This document shows, one piece after another, positions 18,100-60,950 of a stretch of 64,000 nucleotides of DNA. Origin of the DNA: Haloarchaeobius amylolyticus. Its GTDB lineage: Archaea; Halobacteriota; Halobacteria; Halobacteriales; Natrialbaceae. Positions within the stretch are counted from its first letter, which is position 1. The number at the start of each line of letters is the position of its first letter. The notes under the pieces were generated by a model, which was not told the origin of the DNA, made no database searches, and saw only the letters and a list, made by a program, of their open reading frames with translations. Where the stretch lies: assembly GCF_026616195.1 (NCBI RefSeq), contig NZ_JANHDH010000001.1, positions 992,001 to 1,056,000 of the forward strand. The letters run 5' to 3'. The position numbers and the translations under genes were made by a program.

Positions 18100-18672
18100 T
18101 CAGTCGGTGTTCGATTCGAGCAGACGCCGGAGGAGGAACCAGCGACGCTGCCAGAGCTGGTGGGCCGTCGACACCGCCACGATGGCCAGGAACACGCTCG
18201 CGTACAGCACCGTGTTCCCCGGGAGCGACGACAGGGTCCCGATCTCCGCGAGGACGACCGTGAGGAGACTCACCGTCGCCAGCACCCGGTAGTACGTCGC
18301 CTGCGTGACCCCCCAGCGGTTGACGACCTCCATGTACACGTCCACCTGGCGTGCGGTCTCCTGCAGCGTCACCTCCTTCCGGTCCTTGTCGTAGTCGACG
18401 ATGCCGGCCTCGTCGAGTTTCGGGAGGTGTCCCTGGTGGAGCGAGACGTAGACGCTGTCCCGGAGGTTGCTCGGTGCCGGCGATTCGTCGGCCTCGAGTT
18501 CGGCGATGTGGTCCGCGAGCTGGCGCAACGTCATCCAGGGACGCTCCTCCTTCAGCTGTTCGATGACACGACGGCGACGGTCGTTGCTCAGCAGGTCGTG
18601 TATCTGTGTCTCACAGATCGCCTCTCCCCGGTCGCCGAACGTCGACCCACCCAGCCTGCTAGAGTCTAACAT
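18100..18672 (-). CDS. HTH membrane protein (DUF7344 type)
   Basis: A 190-residue protein with an N-terminal winged-helix domain of the haloarchaeal DUF7344 type (residues 20-115: 'ICETQIHDLLSNDRRRRVIEQL ... HLPKLDEAGIVDYDKDRKEVTL') and two transmembrane helices near the C-terminus ('VLATVSLLTVVLAEIG' and 'VLYASVFLAIVAV'). It is presumably a membrane-tethered transcription regulator. ATG 18672 is used rather than a GTG three codons earlier. It diverges from the SipW-type surface locus, so it may regulate it. A CTAG site (18658) is in its 5' coding end. Confidence 0.75.
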   Translation of the reverse strand: MLDSSRLGGSTFGDRGEAICETQIHDLLSNDRRRRVIEQLKEERPWMTLRQLADHIAELEADESPAPSNLRDSVYVSLHQGHLPKLDEAGIVDYDKDRKEVTLQETARQVDVYMEVVNRWGVTQATYYRVLATVSLLTVVLAEIGTLSSLPGNTVLYASVFLAIVAVSTAHQLWQRRWFLLRRLLESNTD

Positions 18673-19038
18673 GGGACACACGTGTGCTGGTATGTAATTA
18701 GCTATACTGTACTTACCTCGATTTCCAGAGAATTAATCCACGCTTGGATAGCTAAGGACGCATTTGCCGTCACGTCCCGAGGATAGGCGGCGGATATCGA
18801 TGTGGGCGTGAGAAGTAGGTTGCGCATAGAGGCGTTTGGCGGCCTGTGTGACGACGATAGCTGTGACAACCGCACTCCCGTGAGCGTCCCGCCGTGGTCG
18901 CTCTCCCATCCCCCGATTCTCTCGGTGGTGCGCGTTCGAACCGACGCAGTAGCCCGTCCGTATAGTCGATTAAACAGCCGTTTTGACACAATTCTGGCAA
19001 TTAAGTAAGTGGGTGGGTGACAGTCGTTGGCACGAGGT
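18673..19038. other. Gene-free region before the surface-protein locus
   Basis: No believable gene is seen in this stretch, which is AT-richer than its surroundings. A 'CAATTAAG' TATA-like box at about 18999-19006 is a good candidate promoter for the plus-strand locus, giving a transcript start near 19030 and a leader of about 105 nt that contains the structured element at 19039-19126. On the minus strand 'TATAGCTAATTAC' near 18700 may be the promoter of the HTH membrane protein. Confidence 0.5.
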
Positions 19039-19126
19039 GCTCACGGGGGATCAGGGCGCGGCCACGGGGTGACGGCCGTACTCTCGGCGGCTCGACTCCG
19101 CCGGTGAGCCTCCCCGATACGGGGGA
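19039..19126 (+). promoter_or_regulatory. tRNA-like structured leader element 1
   Basis: A closing stem pairs CTCAC (19040-44) with GTGAG (19104-08). Inside it is a 5-bp hairpin (CGGCC 19059-63 with GGCCG 19074-78) and a T-arm-like hairpin GGCGG-CTCGACT-CCGCC (19086-19102). A second hairpin, TCCCC-GATAC-GGGGGA (19111-19126), ends nine nucleotides before the start codon at 19136. The closing stem differs from the copies at 21354 and 23114 by a compensating base-pair change. It lies in the transcribed leader, so a role in translation or RNA stability is inferred. Confidence 0.55.
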
Positions 19127-19135
19127 TGAACGACT

Positions 19136-21331
19136 ATGTCAGGTGAGAACTTCGAGATCTCACGGCGGAAAGCACTGGCCGCACTGGGAACAATCGGCGC
19201 GGCGTCGGCGGGGGCGGGCCTCGGAACGTCGGCGTTCTTCAGCGACTCCGAGCGGTTCGAGGGCAACACCCTCACCGCGGGCGAGCTGGACCTCAAGGTC
19301 GACTGGGAGGAGCACTACTCCGACTGGTCCGATGACGAGAGCAAGAATCTGGATAACGAGGTCCTGATGTCCGAACCGGACGACACCTCGAACTACGTCG
19401 GCCTGCCGGACCCGATGAACCCACTCATCTGGGTCCACACCGACGACCTCGGGCAGTTCATGGACAACACGGCCGTCGAGGCCTACCCGGACACGAACGA
19501 CGACGGGGTCCAGGACTCCTTCGGCGAGGGTAATGTCGGCGACATCTGCGTCGACGGCGCGGACACGCCCGAGGATCTCAATCCGGCGAACGGGCTCCGG
19601 ACCAGCAACGACGACACGTTGGACGAGGATGACGAGCCCAAGCCGCTCGTCAGCCTCGAGGACGTCAAGCCCGGCGACTTCGGCGAGCTCACCCTGAGCT
19701 TCCACCTCTGTGACAACGACGGGTACGTGTGGCTCCAGGGTTCGAACGTCGCCGCCAGCGAGAACGGGCTCTCAGAGCCGGAGTCGAAAGACCCCGACGA
19801 GGGGCCGGGCGTGGAACTGCTCGACGCCATCCAGACCGTCTGGTGGTACGACGAGGACGGCGACAACGTCATCGACGAGGGGACCGTCGAACAGGAGGGC
19901 GAGACGGCGGACGTGATGATTGTCCTTGACCGGTCCGGGTCGATGGACCCGCAGGGCGAGCCCAACAAGTTCCAGAACGCCAAGGACGGGGCGAAGTCGC
20001 TGGTCGATGCACTTGGTCCAGGCGCTCAGGTCGGCCTCGTGTCCTTCAGCGATCAGGGAACCGTGGACGAGCCTCTCGGTTCCGCCCGGCAGGACGTCAA
20101 AGACAGTATCGATGGACTGAGTGCCGGCGGGACGACGAATATCGCGGACGCCATCAGCGACGCTCAGAGCGAACTCGCCGGGGGGTCCGGTGACAACCAG
20201 TACATGGTCGTGCTGAGCAACGGCGTGCAGAATACGGGTGGTGACGCCCGGGGTAATGCGACCGCCGCCAAGGACGCTGGCATCCACATCATCTCCATCG
20301 CCTACGGCAGCGGGGCCGACCAGAATCTCATGGAGGACATCTCAAGTCCCGATAAGGTCGACGACGGGACGATCGACGACGCCGACGAGAACGCCTTTGT
20401 CGGCGAGATCACCGACATCGACGACGTCTTCGACGACATCGGGGACATCATCGTCCAGCAGACGGGCGAGCAGGTGTTCCGCCGTGGGACCCTCGGCTCT
20501 GACCTCGAGGCACTCTCGACGGACGACGGTATCCCGCTCGACGGTGACCTCTCGACCGACTACGACGAGATCGGCGGCATCGGCAACGAGACCGACCCCG
20601 AGCTGGGCGAACGCGAGTGCTTCGCCGCCAGCGAGACCCACTACATCGGCTTCGCGTGGTACCTGCCGGTCGACCACGCCAACGAGATCCAGACCGACTC
20701 CGTCGTGTTCAACCTCGGCTTCTACACCGAGCAGTGCCGGCACAACGACGGCTCCGGGCAGTCCGGCACCAACCTCCAGATCTCCGGCAAGCGGGGCAAC
20801 GGTTTCGCCAAGGTTCAGGAGAACTACAACGGCGACCAGACCATCTCCGGCGGCGCCCGGGCGCGCTTCGGTGGACAGAACACGTGGGAGCTCGCGGTCG
20901 GCGACGCACCCGGCAGTTCGAACTTCAGCCAGGGCGAGTACAGCTGGACCAGTGGCAAGACCGTCGACTGGATGGTCTCCTACGACGACAGCAGCGACGA
21001 GCTGAGCTTCACGTTCGACGGCAACACCATCTCGCAGACGCTGTCGAGCGAACCGAGCGGCCGCATCGCGGTCCAGGGCAAGGCCGACGAGGCGACAGTC
21101 GAGATCGACGACCTGTCGCTGAGCGTCGACGGCGGGGCCCCGGATTCGCCGGTGCCAGACGGTGTCACCGCCACGAACGACGGCACGGGGCGGGAGATCC
21201 GCTACCTCTCCATCGACCCCGGCTTCGACGGGAGTCAGTCCTTCGAGTACAGCGGGACCACGACGGTCTCGCTACAGGGTGACTTCCCGGGCGGCGACGA
21301 GGACGTCGCCTTCGACGTGGTCGTCGAGTGA
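19136..21331 (+). CDS. SipW-type secreted surface protein with inserted VWA domain
   Basis: A 731-residue exported protein. The N-terminal SipW-type signal ('SRRKALAALGTIGAASAGAGLGTSAFFSDSE') is followed by a TasA/camelysin-like scaffold ('LDLKVDWEEHYSDWS', 'DVKPGDFGELTLSFHLC', 'YVWLQG'). A von Willebrand A domain is inserted at residues 258-440, with MIDAS 'DRSGS' at 265-269 and 'GGTTN' near 333; the fifth site reads 'VLSNG', with Asn instead of the usual Asp. The scaffold resumes to 'FNLGFYTEQCRHNDGSG' near residue 543. The last 190 residues are beta-rich and lectin-like, perhaps a choice-of-anchor domain. It probably forms or decorates surface fibres and is processed by the peptidase at 24189. 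Confidence 0.8.
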   Translation: MSGENFEISRRKALAALGTIGAASAGAGLGTSAFFSDSERFEGNTLTAGELDLKVDWEEHYSDWSDDESKNLDNEVLMSEPDDTSNYVGLPDPMNPLIWVHTDDLGQFMDNTAVEAYPDTNDDGVQDSFGEGNVGDICVDGADTPEDLNPANGLRTSNDDTLDEDDEPKPLVSLEDVKPGDFGELTLSFHLCDNDGYVWLQGSNVAASENGLSEPESKDPDEGPGVELLDAIQTVWWYDEDGDNVIDEGTVEQEGETADVMIVLDRSGSMDPQGEPNKFQNAKDGAKSLVDALGPGAQVGLVSFSDQGTVDEPLGSARQDVKDSIDGLSAGGTTNIADAISDAQSELAGGSGDNQYMVVLSNGVQNTGGDARGNATAAKDAGIHIISIAYGSGADQNLMEDISSPDKVDDGTIDDADENAFVGEITDIDDVFDDIGDIIVQQTGEQVFRRGTLGSDLEALSTDDGIPLDGDLSTDYDEIGGIGNETDPELGERECFAASETHYIGFAWYLPVDHANEIQTDSVVFNLGFYTEQCRHNDGSGQSGTNLQISGKRGNGFAKVQENYNGDQTISGGARARFGGQNTWELAVGDAPGSSNFSQGEYSWTSGKTVDWMVSYDDSSDELSFTFDGNTISQTLSSEPSGRIAVQGKADEATVEIDDLSLSVDGGAPDSPVPDGVTATNDGTGREIRYLSIDPGFDGSQSFEYSGTTTVSLQGDFPGGDEDVAFDVVVE

Positions 21332-21352
21332 GGAACAGGTCGGCAGCTAGCG

Positions 21353-21455
21353 GCCCACGACGGCACGCGAACGCCCGGCCCGTCCGGGACTCGCGGCGCG
21401 GCAGACGCGTCTCGGCGGTTCGATTCCGCCGGTGGGTCATCCCCGGGGAGGGGGA
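21353..21455 (+). promoter_or_regulatory. tRNA-like structured leader element 2
   Basis: The closing stem is CCCAC (21354-58) with GTGGG (21432-36). Inside are a hairpin CCCGG-CCCGT-CCGGG (about 21373-87), a weak CGCG/CGCG pairing, and a perfect T-arm-like hairpin GGCGG-TTCGATT-CCGCC (21414-21430). TCCCC-GGGGA-GGGGGA (21440-55) then leads into the start at 21461. 24 nt (21413-21436) are identical to 23182-23205. Confidence 0.55.
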
Positions 21456-21460
21456 GAACG

Positions 21461-23056
21461 ATGTCAGGGGAGGACCTCGAACTTTCACGACGGAAAGCGC
21501 TCGCGGCACTCGGGACGGCCGGTGTCGCGTCGGTAGGCGTCGGCTTCGGGACGAGCGCCTACTTCAGCGACAGGGAATCGTACGAGGCGAACCGGCTGGT
21601 CGCCGGCGAGCTGGACCTCAAGGTCGACTGGACGGAGCACTACTCGGACTGGTCGGCGGACGAGGGCGAGGGTATCGACACCGTCGCGTCGGAACCCGGG
21701 GACGGGCTGGTCGGATTCCCGTCGGCGGCGCCGCCGGCCGAGCAGTCGGTGTTCGTCAGCGACCCGGACCAGCTCCTCGCGAACACGGCCATCGAGGCGT
21801 TCCCGGACGTGCTCTCGACGGCCGAGGCGTACGACGCCCGGCAGGCCGAGCTGGCGGACGACAGCACGCTGTGTGACCTGCCGGCCGACCTGGACGGCGG
21901 CGAGGGCGTTCTCGCCCACCCGTTCCGGACGCGGGGAACCTTCGGGGAGGAACCGAACCCACAGACCACGGCCGCCGGCGACCCACTGGTGAACGTCTCG
22001 GACGTCAAGCCCGGCGACTTCGGTGAGGTGACCTTCAGTCTGCACCTCTGTGGCAATCCGGGGTACGTCTGGCTGACCGGCACACTCCGGGACGCAGCAG
22101 AGAACGGAGTGACAGAGCCCGAGGCGGCGGCCGACGGCGAGGAGGAGACCGAGGCACGGCCCGCCTCAGAGGACAGCGCCTCGGATACGGTCGAACTCCT
22201 GGACGAACTCCGGGCAGCGATGTGGTACGACACGGGCCCAGACGGGGTCTACGGCGCCGACTTCGAAGACAAGGATGCTGGCGAGGGCGACAACCGGCTC
22301 CAGGATGGCGAGCAGGTGCTCCCGTTGACCGGGTCGCTCCGCAACGTTCTCACCCTCCTTGAAGCGGGGATGTACCCACTCGACGCCGAACCCGTCACGG
22401 ACAGCACCGGGACGGAGCCGACGGCCCCCGCGGGTGCGACGGTCGTCTCGACCGACGACGGTGCGACGACGTACCTGACCACCGAGGAACCGTTCGCGAC
22501 CAAGGGTGCCCGGAACCTGACCTGTGCGGACTACGCGGAGACCCTGGACATCGACGACCTGGTCGGGACGTCTATCGAGGCCGACACCCTCGCGAGCAAG
22601 ACCGAGTATCCGGCCTGTGGTGGGTCGTTGACCGTCGACAGCGTGGACATCGGCGCGGGCTCGATCACCCTCTCGTCGGACTTCCCGGTCCGCATCGTGA
22701 GCCTCAAGGGTGGGAACCAGGGCGAGAAACTGTACGTCTGGCCGGCCCCGGGCGTCGTCCTCGACGAGGTCGTCTTCTCGACACCCGATACCGCATCCGG
22801 CCAGCCGGCCGGTATCAGCAACCTCGGGGTCTGCTGTACCACGGATACCGTCCCGACCCCGGAAGGTGACCCCGGACGGGAGTGCTTCCAGAACTCGACG
22901 ACGGCCTACATCGGCTTCGAGTGGTGGTTGCCGGCCGATACGGGAGACGAGGTCCAGACAGACGGCGTGTCGTTCGACCTCGGGTTCTACACGGAGCAGT
23001 GCCGCCACAACGACGGGAGTGGTATGGCCACGACGACCAGCGGGACCAACGGGTGA
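21461..23056 (+). CDS. SipW-type secreted surface protein with KGG-type beta insert
   Basis: A 531-residue paralogue of the gene upstream, sharing the signal ('SRRKALAALGTAGVASVGVGFGTSAYFSDRE') and scaffold ('LDLKVDWTEHYSDWS', 'DVKPGDFGEVTFSLHLC', 'FDLGFYTEQCRHNDGSG'). In place of the VWA domain it has, at a different loop (about residues 355-455), a module with 'FPVRIVSLKGGNQGEKLYVW' and 'QPAGISNLGVCC'. This resembles a small beta domain widespread in secreted bacterial proteins ('KGG...YVY...ISHISFC'). It ends soon after the scaffold with a Ser/Thr/Gly tail. An exported, fibre-like or matrix role is inferred. Confidence 0.78.
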   Translation: MSGEDLELSRRKALAALGTAGVASVGVGFGTSAYFSDRESYEANRLVAGELDLKVDWTEHYSDWSADEGEGIDTVASEPGDGLVGFPSAAPPAEQSVFVSDPDQLLANTAIEAFPDVLSTAEAYDARQAELADDSTLCDLPADLDGGEGVLAHPFRTRGTFGEEPNPQTTAAGDPLVNVSDVKPGDFGEVTFSLHLCGNPGYVWLTGTLRDAAENGVTEPEAAADGEEETEARPASEDSASDTVELLDELRAAMWYDTGPDGVYGADFEDKDAGEGDNRLQDGEQVLPLTGSLRNVLTLLEAGMYPLDAEPVTDSTGTEPTAPAGATVVSTDDGATTYLTTEEPFATKGARNLTCADYAETLDIDDLVGTSIEADTLASKTEYPACGGSLTVDSVDIGAGSITLSSDFPVRIVSLKGGNQGEKLYVWPAPGVVLDEVVFSTPDTASGQPAGISNLGVCCTTDTVPTPEGDPGRECFQNSTTAYIGFEWWLPADTGDEVQTDGVSFDLGFYTEQCRHNDGSGMATTTSGTNG

Positions 23057-23578
23057 GACTCCCGGGCGAGCCCGACGGTCCGCAGCCGCTCGACCGGCCG
23101 CGACGACCAGCAGCCCACGACAGCGAAGTGGGGAACGATACCCACGGTGGCCAGCGGCCCCACCCCGACCGGCAGGGGTAGCGGCGGTTCGATTCCGCCG
23201 GTGGGAGTAGCGACGTATGCGATCCAGTTCGACACACCGGCGGGGCACGGACCCGCCACCGACCACCGGGAGGAACCGCTCTCGCCCGTCCGTGACCTCA
23301 CACCGACCGCACCGGCTGCACCCGCACCCACAGCGAACCCACCGACCCGGCGCCGACCAGGCTCGACAACTGGAAACGTGGGTGAAAACAGTTTATAGCC
23401 ACCGGTTATCGACCGTCGTCTCGCAGGGAACGGCCGCATGCCACCGTCTCTGGCCCGTGTGGGCCCCGATGTGTGGTATGCGAGGGCTAGTTATGGGGCT
23501 GCCGTTCGAACGACCTGACGATGCTCAGGGGACCGTCCGACCGACGCGACGACACGGATCGACGGGGGTGGGTTCGTG
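23057..23578 (+). other. Gene-free region with a third tRNA-like element and a promoter
   Basis: No credible gene is present. The first 150 nt hold the third structured element. 'CAGTTTATAGCC' at about 23388-23398 is a strong TATA box that gives the next gene its own promoter; its transcript would begin near 23420, leaving a leader of about 160 nt. The ATG-started frame at 23217, just after the element, encodes a Pro/Arg/His-rich sequence that does not look like a protein. Confidence 0.55.
23113..23206 (+). promoter_or_regulatory. tRNA-like structured element 3, without an intact gene after it
   Basis: The closing stem is CCCAC (23114-18) with GTGGG (23201-05). Internal hairpins are GTGGG-GAACGATA-CCCAC (about 23128-45), CCCC-GACCGGCA-GGGG (about 23163-78) and the T-arm-like GGCGG-TTCGATT-CCGCC (23183-99). 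With its three internal arms it is the most cloverleaf-like of the three copies. Unlike the others it is not followed within 35 nt by a coding gene. Confidence 0.5.
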
Positions 23579-24160
23579 ATGACCGGTGAGGAGCTCTCAC
23601 GCCGCCAGTTGCTCGGCGCAGCGGGCGTGCTCTGCACCGTCGGTCTGGTCGGCGGTGCCGGGACGCACGCCCTGCTGACCGACGACGAGAGCTTCGAGGG
23701 GAACCTCATCCAGGCCAGCGAACTCGACCTGCAGGTCGCCTGTCGGACCGACGCCGGCGAGGTCGACCCACCGCAGACCGACGGCCCGTTCCCCTCGACC
23801 TACGCCGACGCCGGGACGGTCGACCCGTCGCTGACGGTCACCGCCGGGACCGAGCGCACCCTCACGGTCGCGCTCCAGACGAACATGGCGGCCGAGACCG
23901 GCCTCGAGGTTCGTGGCGACGCGATGGCCGAGACCGGGGCGACCATCGAGGTCCGACACCGGGGACCGAAGGCAGACGGACTGGAGACCATCGCGAAGCA
24001 GTTGGAGGCGACGGCCCTGCCGACGACGCTCGACCTCGGGCGATGCGGTCCGACCGACCGGCCTCGGATGACCGAACTCACCCTGTCGGTTCCACCGGAC
24101 GCGCCGACCGACTCACAGACGATGACCCTCGAATTCACCGCACGACAATGTACCGACTGA
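23579..24160 (+). CDS. Small SipW-type secreted protein
   Basis: A 193-residue protein beginning 'MTGEELSRRQLLGAAGVLCTVGLVGGAGTHALLTDDESFEGN', a SipW-type signal with the usual 'FEGN' just after it, then a single beta-sandwich-like domain of alternating Thr/Val/Glu. A GTG lies immediately upstream, but the ATG is preferred since a G-rich ribosome-binding-like stretch ('GGGGGTGGG') lies 8-16 nt before it. Only two Cys remain in the C-terminal half, which could form a disulfide. It is likely a minor fibre subunit or anchor in the same system as the two large proteins upstream. Confidence 0.7.
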   Translation: MTGEELSRRQLLGAAGVLCTVGLVGGAGTHALLTDDESFEGNLIQASELDLQVACRTDAGEVDPPQTDGPFPSTYADAGTVDPSLTVTAGTERTLTVALQTNMAAETGLEVRGDAMAETGATIEVRHRGPKADGLETIAKQLEATALPTTLDLGRCGPTDRPRMTELTLSVPPDAPTDSQTMTLEFTARQCTD

Positions 24161-24188: not shown

Positions 24189-25277
24189 ATGAGCCGTCCA
24201 CGGTGGCTCCGGGCGCTGCGAATCCTCGCCTTCCTCGTCGTCCTGGCCGTACTGGTGCCGTTCGTCGTCTACAGCGTCCCGCAGGTCGTGGGCGCGGACC
24301 ACAGTTTCGTCGTCCTCTCGGGGAGCATGGAGCCGACGATGAGTCCGGGCGATGCCGTGGTCGTGACCGAGGTCGACCCCGAGCGCCTCGAGTCCGGCGA
24401 CGTGATCACCTTCGGCCAGAACGGGACGCCGACAACGCACCGCATCGTCGAGGTCCAGCCCCGCGAGGATGGTCTGCAGTTCCTGACGAAGGGCGATGCG
24501 AACGAGGACCCTGACAGGGCACCGGTACAGGCCGAGCAGATCGTCGGGGAGGTCGAGTACGTCCTCCCGTACGTGGGGCACGTGGTCGGCTTCGCGAACA
24601 CGACGACCGGCTTCGGCCTCCTGGTGGCCGGGCCGCTCGCACTGCTGGTCGTCACCGAGCTCTGGACCGCGGCGGCCGCGATACGTGACGGACCCGACGA
24701 CGAGGGCGGGACGGAGGAGCCCGACGCTGTAGCGTCCGACGCCGAGTCGGTGGGGCAGGAGAACGAACCCGGAGCGATGGGCGGGCCACGGGAGGAGCCA
24801 GACGACGACGCTGATGACGGGCCAGCGACGATCACGCTGAGCCAGCGGGACTTCCGCCTGAGCCTGCTCCTGTTCGCACTCTATGCACCCTACAGCGGCT
24901 GGATGGCCTACCAGCGACTGGACCCGGTCTCGGTCGCCCTCGCGGTCGCGTCGGCCGCCGGCCTCCTGTTCGCGGGCTTCGTCGTGGTGACGGGTGGGTC
25001 CGACGACGACGGGACCGCGACGGCGGGGGACGGGGACGACGAGGACCCGACCCTGCCGCCCGCCCGGGTCGACCTTGGCGAGCGCGCCACGGAGTTCGAG
25101 TTCGACACCGGACTCGAACCGGTCGCCTGGGAGCCCGGGCAGGCACCCGACATCGACTGGCCAGAGCCGCAGTGGTCCAGTCCGAACGGCAATGGCCCCA
25201 CCGACGACCCGGGGGACCTCTGGGAACCGCGTGGTTCAGACGGGTCGCCCGACCCCAGCGAGGTGGATGGTCGATGA
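24189..25277 (+). CDS. Signal peptidase I, archaeal/SipW (S26B) type
   Basis: A 362-residue membrane peptidase. After one N-terminal helix (residues 10-30) comes the catalytic Ser46 in 'VVLSGSMEPTM' and His84 in 'TPTTHRIVEV'; the Lys of bacterial enzymes is replaced by His, as in ER and SipW types. 'FLTKGDANEDPD' completes the fold. A second helix near 145-165 and two more near 225-265 surround an acidic cytoplasmic or external stretch, and the C-terminal 90 residues are disordered and acidic, longer than usual. It sits right after the SipW-type substrates and most likely cleaves their signals. The stop overlaps the next start (ATGA). Confidence 0.9.
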   Translation: MSRPRWLRALRILAFLVVLAVLVPFVVYSVPQVVGADHSFVVLSGSMEPTMSPGDAVVVTEVDPERLESGDVITFGQNGTPTTHRIVEVQPREDGLQFLTKGDANEDPDRAPVQAEQIVGEVEYVLPYVGHVVGFANTTTGFGLLVAGPLALLVVTELWTAAAAIRDGPDDEGGTEEPDAVASDAESVGQENEPGAMGGPREEPDDDADDGPATITLSQRDFRLSLLLFALYAPYSGWMAYQRLDPVSVALAVASAAGLLFAGFVVVTGGSDDDGTATAGDGDDEDPTLPPARVDLGERATEFEFDTGLEPVAWEPGQAPDIDWPEPQWSSPNGNGPTDDPGDLWEPRGSDGSPDPSEVDGR

Positions 25278-25807
25278 CGGACCGAACACCACCCCGACAG
25301 GTCCGGATAGCCCTGCTCCTGGTGGCGCTCCTCGGCCTCGCACTCGTCGGCGGCTACCAGACCTACGGGGCGCTGAGCGACTCCGAACCGGTCTCGGTGA
25401 ACGTCTCCATCGAGGGGGCATCCGCAGAGGACGAGACCACCTCGACGACCGGGAACGCGACAGACACGACGACGAACGTGACCACCTCCCAGACGACCAC
25501 CACGCAGAACACCACCACGCAGACGACCACCACACAGAACACCACCACGCAGACGACCACCACACAGAACACCACCACGCAGACGACCACTACACAGACG
25601 ACCACCACGCAGAACACCACCACACAGAACACCACCACGCAGTCGACCACTACACAGACGACCACCACGCAGAACACCACCACACAGAACACCACCACGC
25701 AGTCGACAACTGCCCAGACTACCACGACAACTACGACAACTGCGACGACCACGACCGCACAGACGAACACCACGACGACGAACGCGTCGGTACTGTACGT
25801 TCGGTAG
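25274..25807 (+). CDS. Thr/Asn/Gln-repeat surface protein
   Basis: A 177-residue exported protein. An N-terminal helix ('IALLLVALLGLALVGGYQTYGALSDSE') with the SipW-like 'GALSDSE' is followed by a short spacer and a repeat tract built from 'QTTTTQNTTT' units. The many N-T-T sites would be N-glycosylation sequons on the cell surface, and the Thr runs could be O-glycosylated. It ends 'NASVLYVR'. The start overlaps the signal peptidase stop by 4 nt (ATGA), so the two are translationally coupled. The frame is open further upstream, but that part overlaps the peptidase. Mucin-like stalk or coat is a reasonable inference. Confidence 0.75.
   Translation: MTDRTPPRQVRIALLLVALLGLALVGGYQTYGALSDSEPVSVNVSIEGASAEDETTSTTGNATDTTTNVTTSQTTTTQNTTTQTTTTQNTTTQTTTTQNTTTQTTTTQTTTTQNTTTQNTTTQSTTTQTTTTQNTTTQNTTTQSTTAQTTTTTTTTATTTTAQTNTTTTNASVLYVR
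25490..25745 (+). repeat. Tandem codon repeat (ACC/ACG/CAG/AAC)
   Basis: Three near-identical 30-nt units encoding 'QTTTTQNTTT' are followed by two 60-nt units ending 'QNTTTQSTTT', then Thr/Ala-rich remnants. The units differ mostly at third positions (ACC, ACA, ACT), as expected for repeat growth with point change. Confidence 0.8.
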
Positions 25808-60394: not shown

Positions 60395-60950
60395 ATGTCT
60401 ACACAGACGCCGGAGGATAGAGGAAGTCGCCTCGACGCGGCTGATCGAGAAATTCTCCGCAGACGAGCCTGAACTCACGGTTACAGCCGACAGCCACGGC
60501 CTGTTACTCGCTGTCGGCGACGAGACGTACGAGCTTTCCCGCGACGACGCCCTGGAGCTACGCGACCAGCTGGCCGACGCGGTGACACAGACACACGAGT
60601 TCGTCCACACCACCTGCACCCACCGCGAGGACGGCAGCTACGTGGTCGAGCGCCGCGGCGCGAACTCCGCCGGCCACCGGAAGGTGTTCGACTCCTTCGA
60701 GGCCTGCGTGCGCCTGTTCGGGCGCCTGCCCGACGAGTTCACCGCGGAGGACGTGGGCCGCACCGGGCTCACCGGCGGCCGCCGGCACATGCTGGTGTGG
60801 CACTACGCCGAGCATCCCGAGTTCGACTGCGAGCTCGTCTCGCGCCAGCCACTGACCGTGGCGAAGCGCGACGGCGAGACCGCGGACGCGGAACACGACT
60901 CGACCGGGCCACGGCCGGTCGGGCTGGTGGAGGTGTCGCCCGCGGACTGA
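60395..60950 (+). pseudogene. DUF7528-like small protein gene with a probable +1 frameshift
   Basis: 'ACGCTTATGG' at about 60359 is a TATA box and ATG 60395 is in leaderless position, giving 'MSTQTPED' before the frame fails. The next frame carries the believable protein: 'EEVASTRLIEKFSADEPELTVTADSHGLLLAVGDETYELSRDDALELRDQL' and onward for about 177 residues. An extra A at about 60419 would explain the break. No good start codon lies inside the second frame. It may be a sequencing error or a decayed gene; function unknown. Confidence 0.65.

Follow-up and report, generated by a model that had tools for sequence, protein, structure and literature searches.

What are copies of a tRNA-like structure doing among genes for surface proteins? 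The question is raised by a 64,000-nucleotide stretch of the Haloarchaeobius amylolyticus genome (contig NZ_JANHDH010000001.1; hereafter, the window), where a first-pass annotation made from the letters had reported three tRNA-like elements flanking SipW-type genes. Direct reading of coordinates and stems showed that these elements are real, and they lie among their neighboring genes as follows.

19039..19110, + strand: putative t-element copy 1, in the leader of a SipW-type vWA gene; acceptor GCTCAC (19039-19044) paired with GTGAGC (19104-19109); linker (with GG) and insert, 19045-19084; T-arm C+GGCGG-CTCGACT-CCGCC+G, 19085-19103
19110^19111: predicted cut of copy 1, placed by the 13-nt ruler common to 5S leaders
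19111-19126, + strand: predicted 5'-terminal hairpin TCCCC/GGGGA of copy 1, ending 9 nt before ATG 19136
19136..21331, + strand: SipW-type signal peptide protein; domains: vWA and choice-of-anchor W
21352..21439, + strand: putative t-element copy 2, flanked on both sides by SipW-type genes; acceptor GGCCCAC (21352-21358) paired with GTGGGTC (21432-21438); T-arm, 21413-21431
21438^21439, or one nucleotide later: predicted cut of copy 2
21440..21455, + strand: predicted 5'-terminal hairpin TCCCC...GGGGA of copy 2, 5 nt before ATG 21461
21461..23056, + strand: second SipW-type signal peptide protein
23114..23207, + strand: putative t-element copy 3, 3' of the second SipW-type gene; T-arm, 23182-23200; 3' acceptor strand GTGGG, 23201-23205; possible 5' partners CCCAC 23114-23118 (the MFE partner), CCCAC 23141-23145 (then GG), and CCCAC near 23159
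23576..24160, + strand: third SipW-type signal peptide protein, small, starting at GTG 23576 or ATG 23579
24189..25277, + strand: signal peptidase I of the SipW/archaeal type, exceeding the TIGR02228 cut-off at 112.9 bits

The proteins encoded from 19136, 21461, and 23576 score above the cut-off of TIGR04088 (SipW-dependent signal), and the SipW-type genes of the window are paralogues. With NF046067, the signal peptidase I at 24189..25277 reached 103.4 bits, below that model's cut-off of 190. Adjoining the SipW cluster, a divergent gene (18100-18681, − strand) encodes a DUF7344 protein (PF24035, E 2.3e-29), which could be a candidate regulator of the cluster. Directly after the signal peptidase gene, 25172-25807 (+ strand) encodes a low-complexity Thr/Gln/Asn protein with NTTTQTTTT repeats and an N-terminal hydrophobic segment, for which a family match was sought and none was found.

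As had been noted from the letters, copies 2 and 3 share 24 identical nucleotides, CGGCGGTTCGATTCCGCCGGTGGG, and the acceptor carries a genuine compensating change, CTCAC/GTGAG in copy 1 against CCCAC/GTGGG in copies 2 and 3. RNAfold regained the intended fold for copies 2 and 3; in its MFE structure of copy 1 the closing stem forms, as does the CCCC/GGGG hairpin, but the T-arm does not. The folding-energy z-scores of the three window copies were weak (0.19, −0.45, and −1.81). The folding energy of a single copy is uninformative here, and the proof of the elements is comparative, lying in their spread and covariation.

A search of 80 fetched loci together with stretches of the host's own genome gave 175 core-like matches, with 152 of them distinct, intergenic, and carrying at most 4 mismatches. 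The common core consists of a 5- to 6-bp acceptor stem, a GG, a variable insert, and a 6-bp T-arm with a TTCGAYT loop; the T-arm consensus in the window copies is C-GGCGG-YTCGAYT-CCGCC-G, with the 3' acceptor strand immediately after it. When pairs were counted from the T-loop in the 123 elements with an exact acceptor partner, positions 1-11 were paired, position 12 was paired in 57%, and position 13 was at background, where pairs 7-11 are paired by construction, the 5' acceptor strand having been found by complementarity, and are not independent evidence. Of 27 elements with an unusual acceptor, 14 had the complement of that acceptor upstream, compared to 6.7 for swapped cores. Read from these alignments, the helix is an acceptor-like closing stem stacked on the T-arm for 11-12 bp in total, as in tRNA (5+7). 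The resemblance to a T-arm that was remarked at the outset covers a canonical TTCRANY loop (CTCGACT in window copy 1) and a T-arm/acceptor stack. A GG followed the 5' acceptor strand within 7 nt in 117/123 elements, against a background of 35%, and is the analogue of the D-loop G18-G19. The fold originally drawn comprised a closing stem, inner hairpins, and a T-arm; the core of acceptor, GG, and T-arm stands, while the inner hairpins drop out of it, belonging to an insert that is variable, dispensable, and 8-106 nt long. In minimal natural copies the linker is 8-9 nt, without CCA. Owing to the insert, the 5' partner is ambiguous in some copies, window copy 3 among these.

On a tRNA, tRNase Z leaves 13 nt after the T-loop, made up of 5 T-stem nucleotides, 7 acceptor nucleotides, and 1 discriminator. 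The distance from the T-loop to the predicted cut in the mRNA elements is likewise 13 nt: the helix ends, two nucleotides follow, and then comes a T in 97%.

We then asked whether the stems covary. The covariance alignment was made from 54 short-insert copies, because MAFFT misaligned the 5' strand of the six host copies with inserts. Double changes occurred in 7 of its 12 pairs, and no shuffle or slide came near this. Among 147 distinct model matches, in an alignment fitted to the structure, there were 81 double-change cells compared to 23.7 when shuffled (0/500 shuffles). Moreover, G-U pairs are kept in the sense-strand stems, and selection on RNA is therefore favored. Altogether, the alignments indicate that the stems covary and that RNA structure is under selection.

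The host genome contains six copies, three of them beyond the window, found by pattern as well as by the covariance model. One of the three (C1:201053) precedes a SipW-type gene, another (C1:204231) precedes a signal peptidase I gene, and the third (C1:1459165, minus strand) lies between two secreted-protein genes of the SipW/DUF1102-like surface kind. This third copy is minimal, GACCCAC-TCTGGCATT-CGGCGG-TTCGATT-CCGCCG-GTGGGTC, and folds as drawn (z −3.33). All six adjoin genes for surface proteins (SipW-type or DUF1102-like) or for a signal peptidase of SipW type. The 24-nt core, allowing up to 2 mismatches, was present in 114 of 292 Halobacteria genomes and 41 of 77 genera, with copies often clustered 0.6-4 kb apart; a reversed control pattern gave 0 matches among the same 292 genomes. 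The early proposal of selection on RNA structure is borne out by these further covarying copies. Across 84,980 prokaryote genomes the exact 23-nt core was found in 73 stretches, 72 of them haloarchaeal, and the remaining one belongs to a Spirochaetes bin, where it forms the 3' half of a true tRNA-Thr; by its letters, the core motif literally has the look of a tRNA T-arm and acceptor. A phylum-wide model search of limited sensitivity matched 15 genomes, none outside Halobacteria among the matches listed.

These data bear on passive duplication, in which leader copies would be carried along with their genes without a selected function. The paralogy of the window genes and the 24 nt common to copies 2 and 3 are what it would produce. 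It does not account for acceptor stems that covary beside inserts that are wholly different, for a core spread over so many genera, or for the use of the same plan before 5S rRNA described below; we give it next to no probability, as it is already contradicted by the covariation and the 5S leader data.

Placement in the genome was examined next. Of 81 perfect-core matches, 76 are intergenic between co-directional genes, in sense orientation, with a start codon mostly 21-28 nt downstream. Using a SipW profile built from genes picked without regard to elements, and scoring gaps of 40-400 nt, we found an element in 71 of 113 SipW-SipW gaps versus 39 of 396 other-other gaps; since possession of elements was the basis for choosing the loci, the classes can be compared with each other but absolute rates cannot be used. 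The association with SipW-type genes, first suggested by the window, extends across these loci. An element was also present in 11 of 61 gaps before SipW genes with the upstream gene on the opposite strand, and at these 11 copies there are no cistrons to separate. When 30 genes were picked only by their TIGR04088 score, 5 had an element directly upstream (random windows, 10/600); not all SipW genes have one. The proteins encoded downstream are of SipW-type and Taf fimbrial kinds, with TIGR04088 matching 78 of 138 (E ≤ 0.01), camelysin-like 63, TafA 35, TafE 25, and TafC 19. On annotated plasmids of Natronorubrum bangense and Halomontanus rarus, an element lies between two genes for SipW-dependent-type signal peptide-containing proteins, with signal peptidase I downstream. 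Elements were also seen in gaps between genes without a SipW-profile match, and 14 of the 138 downstream proteins are DUF1102.

Near-identical cores repeated beside tandem paralogous genes could instead be DNA recombination sites, serving as cassette borders or as integration sites derived from tRNA genes for the gain, loss, or duplication of surface genes; tRNA genes are common integration sites. The first-pass annotation had likened the copies to cassette borders, a comparison that the data do not support. The copies are co-directional, placed only in the sense orientation, and at a fixed distance from the ATG; their stems covary and, on the sense strand, retain G-U pairs; and the same element occurs before 5S rRNA. 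Strand specificity, start-codon spacing, G-U pairs, and the 5S occurrence fit an RNA processing signal and not a DNA recombination site. Furthermore, viral contigs gave no exact core match, and none of 7 flanking proteins scanned (0/7) matched a recombinase family. Judged by placement and neighboring genes, recombination sites, integron attC included, are highly improbable.

In Haloferax volcanii and other haloarchaea a t-element precedes the 5S rRNA (Holzle 2008, 2012, as described in PMC4326828; PMC3296008). In Haloferax this element is cut by tRNase Z, and t-elements serve there as substrates of RNase P and tRNase Z (PMC4326828; PMC4946936); they are already a tool in archaeal genetics, releasing crRNAs. 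Two of our core matches (loci L087 and L092) proved to be 5S rRNA leaders. The host 5S leader reads CCGAT-ATTGG...-TCGCGG-TTCGATT-CCGCGA-ATCGG-CG and then, across the boundary, TTAAGGCGGCC. We therefore compared the 5S loci of 30 genomes, 28 of which were readable. The T-loop lies at exactly −20..−14 in 27 of the 28, an acceptor partner is present in all 28, and GG follows the acceptor in 27. A single readable leader (L211, genome G026) has the loop ATCGTTC in place of TTCRANY, with stem and acceptor kept. Covariance model R1, built from mRNA elements only, matched 18 of the 30 5S loci at full length (E < 0.05), and all 18 matches end at the same nucleotide, the start of the Rfam 5S match. Thirteen nucleotides separate the T-loop from the 5S start, as read from sequence and the Rfam match; the mRNA elements agree in this spacing, and so in their register to the predicted processed 5' end.

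Both groups have an acceptor stem, a GG linker, a variable insert, and a T-arm with a TTCGAYT loop. Unlike the 5S t-element, the mRNA elements stand between protein-coding genes, in arrays, and are followed by a dedicated 5'-hairpin and then a start codon. The acceptors differ as well (CCCAC/GTGGG in mRNA elements, CCGAC/GTCGG in the 5S t-element), as does the T-stem sequence, so that a common plan, rather than common descent, is what the sequences show. The data establish how the elements are built and where they stand in the genome, their covariation, their register, and a plan identical to that of the element before 5S rRNA.

From these we infer cutting of the mRNAs, the identity of the enzymes, and an effect on expression. 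We are fairly confident that the elements are intercistronic t-elements, a tRNA punctuation that would open fimbrial operon mRNAs to cutting by tRNase Z and probably also by RNase P. Embedded in a polycistronic mRNA, each element would imitate the half of a tRNA that holds acceptor stem and T-arm. On its 3' side, 13 nt past the T-loop, tRNase Z would cut; on its 5' side RNase P probably would; and the operon transcript would be split between neighboring SipW-type (fimbria-like) genes. The 5' end of the downstream mRNA would then be a hairpin, TCCCC...GGGGA, some 20 nt ahead of its start codon; this hairpin may provide a defined, protected 5' end and a stability of its own, and separate stabilities could yield different amounts of subunits from one transcript.

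The hairpin was noticed in the window as a second structure before the start codon, and it recurs: 68 of 79 elements have a stem of at least 4 bp in the stretch that runs from the predicted cut to the start codon, versus 35% in shuffles. In 57 of the 68 the stem starts at the first or second nucleotide past the predicted cut, TCCCC/GGGGA being the commonest, and the T that follows the cut is usually 17-26 nt from the start codon. With a stem at the predicted cut, the processed mRNA would therefore start with a nearly blunt hairpin. 5'-stem-loops protect mRNAs from 5'-end-dependent decay, and by analogy this hairpin may stabilize the processed mRNA.

The tight spacing to the start codon, the G-rich arm of the hairpin near that codon, and the copies in first-gene leaders would also suit a regulatory or translational mimic that stays uncut, in which a bound protein (e.g., a T-arm-binding modification enzyme or tRNase Z) or the ribosome controls the next gene and the CCCC/GGGG hairpin masks the ribosome-binding site. 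We consider this unlikely, since it predicts neither a register common with 5S rRNA, an untranslated RNA, nor a placement mainly between SipW-type genes, and the hairpin starts exactly at the cut site given by the tRNA ruler.

Window copy 3 has no 5'-hairpin and no close start codon of any called gene, and for this reason it may act as a 3' end. Such copies, found after the second gene here and in like positions elsewhere, are what would be expected if the element were mainly a 3'-end signal, the mimic capping or protecting the 3' end of the upstream mRNA (possibly CCA-tailed) after the tRNase Z cut, with downstream effects secondary. Against this as the general role, which we judge very doubtful, most copies are followed by a conserved 5'-hairpin and keep a conserved spacing to the start codon. 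All four alternatives explain less than intercistronic processing does; above all, they do not predict the register common with 5S rRNA.

We think it probable that half-tRNAs embedded in mRNAs, each followed by a nearly blunt 5'-hairpin, form a dedicated family, widely conserved in Halobacteria, at whose members tRNase Z (and RNase P) would cut fimbrial transcripts and set subunit amounts. The first-pass annotation knew of no described element of this kind. This holds for the array form in mRNA, and not for the anatomy, which is that of the Haloferax 5S t-element in the account of PMC4326828. Our literature search, outside which Holzle 2012 lay, found no paper on mRNA t-elements or joining SipW with haloarchaea; t-elements have been described before 5S rRNA and put to use as a tool, and, as far as searched, the mRNA array form is new. 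To our knowledge, bacterial mRNAs cut by RNase P have no similarly conserved family of tRNA mimics. In bacteria, RNase P likewise cuts polycistronic mRNAs between the genes of an operon (PMC11143913). In plant mitochondria, PRORP processes tRNA-like structures at the ends of mRNAs (PMC10941002); there, as in mitochondrial tRNA punctuation, tRNA-like folds define mRNA ends between genes. The mitochondrial systems belong to another domain and use other enzymes, and in place of a whole tRNA the haloarchaeal element has just the acceptor/T-arm half and its GG linker.

The processing of archaeal operon mRNAs is little understood. If the proposal is true, it provides a sequence-recognizable class of mRNA cut sites, predictable to about 1 nt in more than 100 genomes, and means that essential tRNA enzymes have been recruited to messenger RNA. 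Unequal amounts of surface-fiber subunits from one haloarchaeal transcript would become testable, acceptor, GG, and T-arm would represent a minimal natural mimic of the tRNA elbow, and the elements would be ready cleavage modules for archaeal genetics.

Other identities were considered. A tRNA gene or pseudogene, with D-arm, anticodon arm, and tRNA length, does not describe the elements: ARAGORN made 0 calls in the window, and the inserts range as given above. Among the fetched loci, ARAGORN tRNA calls overlap a few elements (L058:5475-5556, L088:8655-8743, L101:6958-7031, and L108:7155-7242), two of the calls having incomplete anticodons, and automatic annotation may list a few elements as false tRNA genes. 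A sigma-70 promoter and terminator scan, with models not meant for archaea, returned nothing. Known Rfam cis-regulatory families (T-box, riboswitches) gave no match at the elements; the only one to exceed its gathering score in the whole window is the leuA-Halobacteria RNA (Rfam RF03001, 65.1 bits), a known cis-regulatory family, at 60406-60458 on the + strand.
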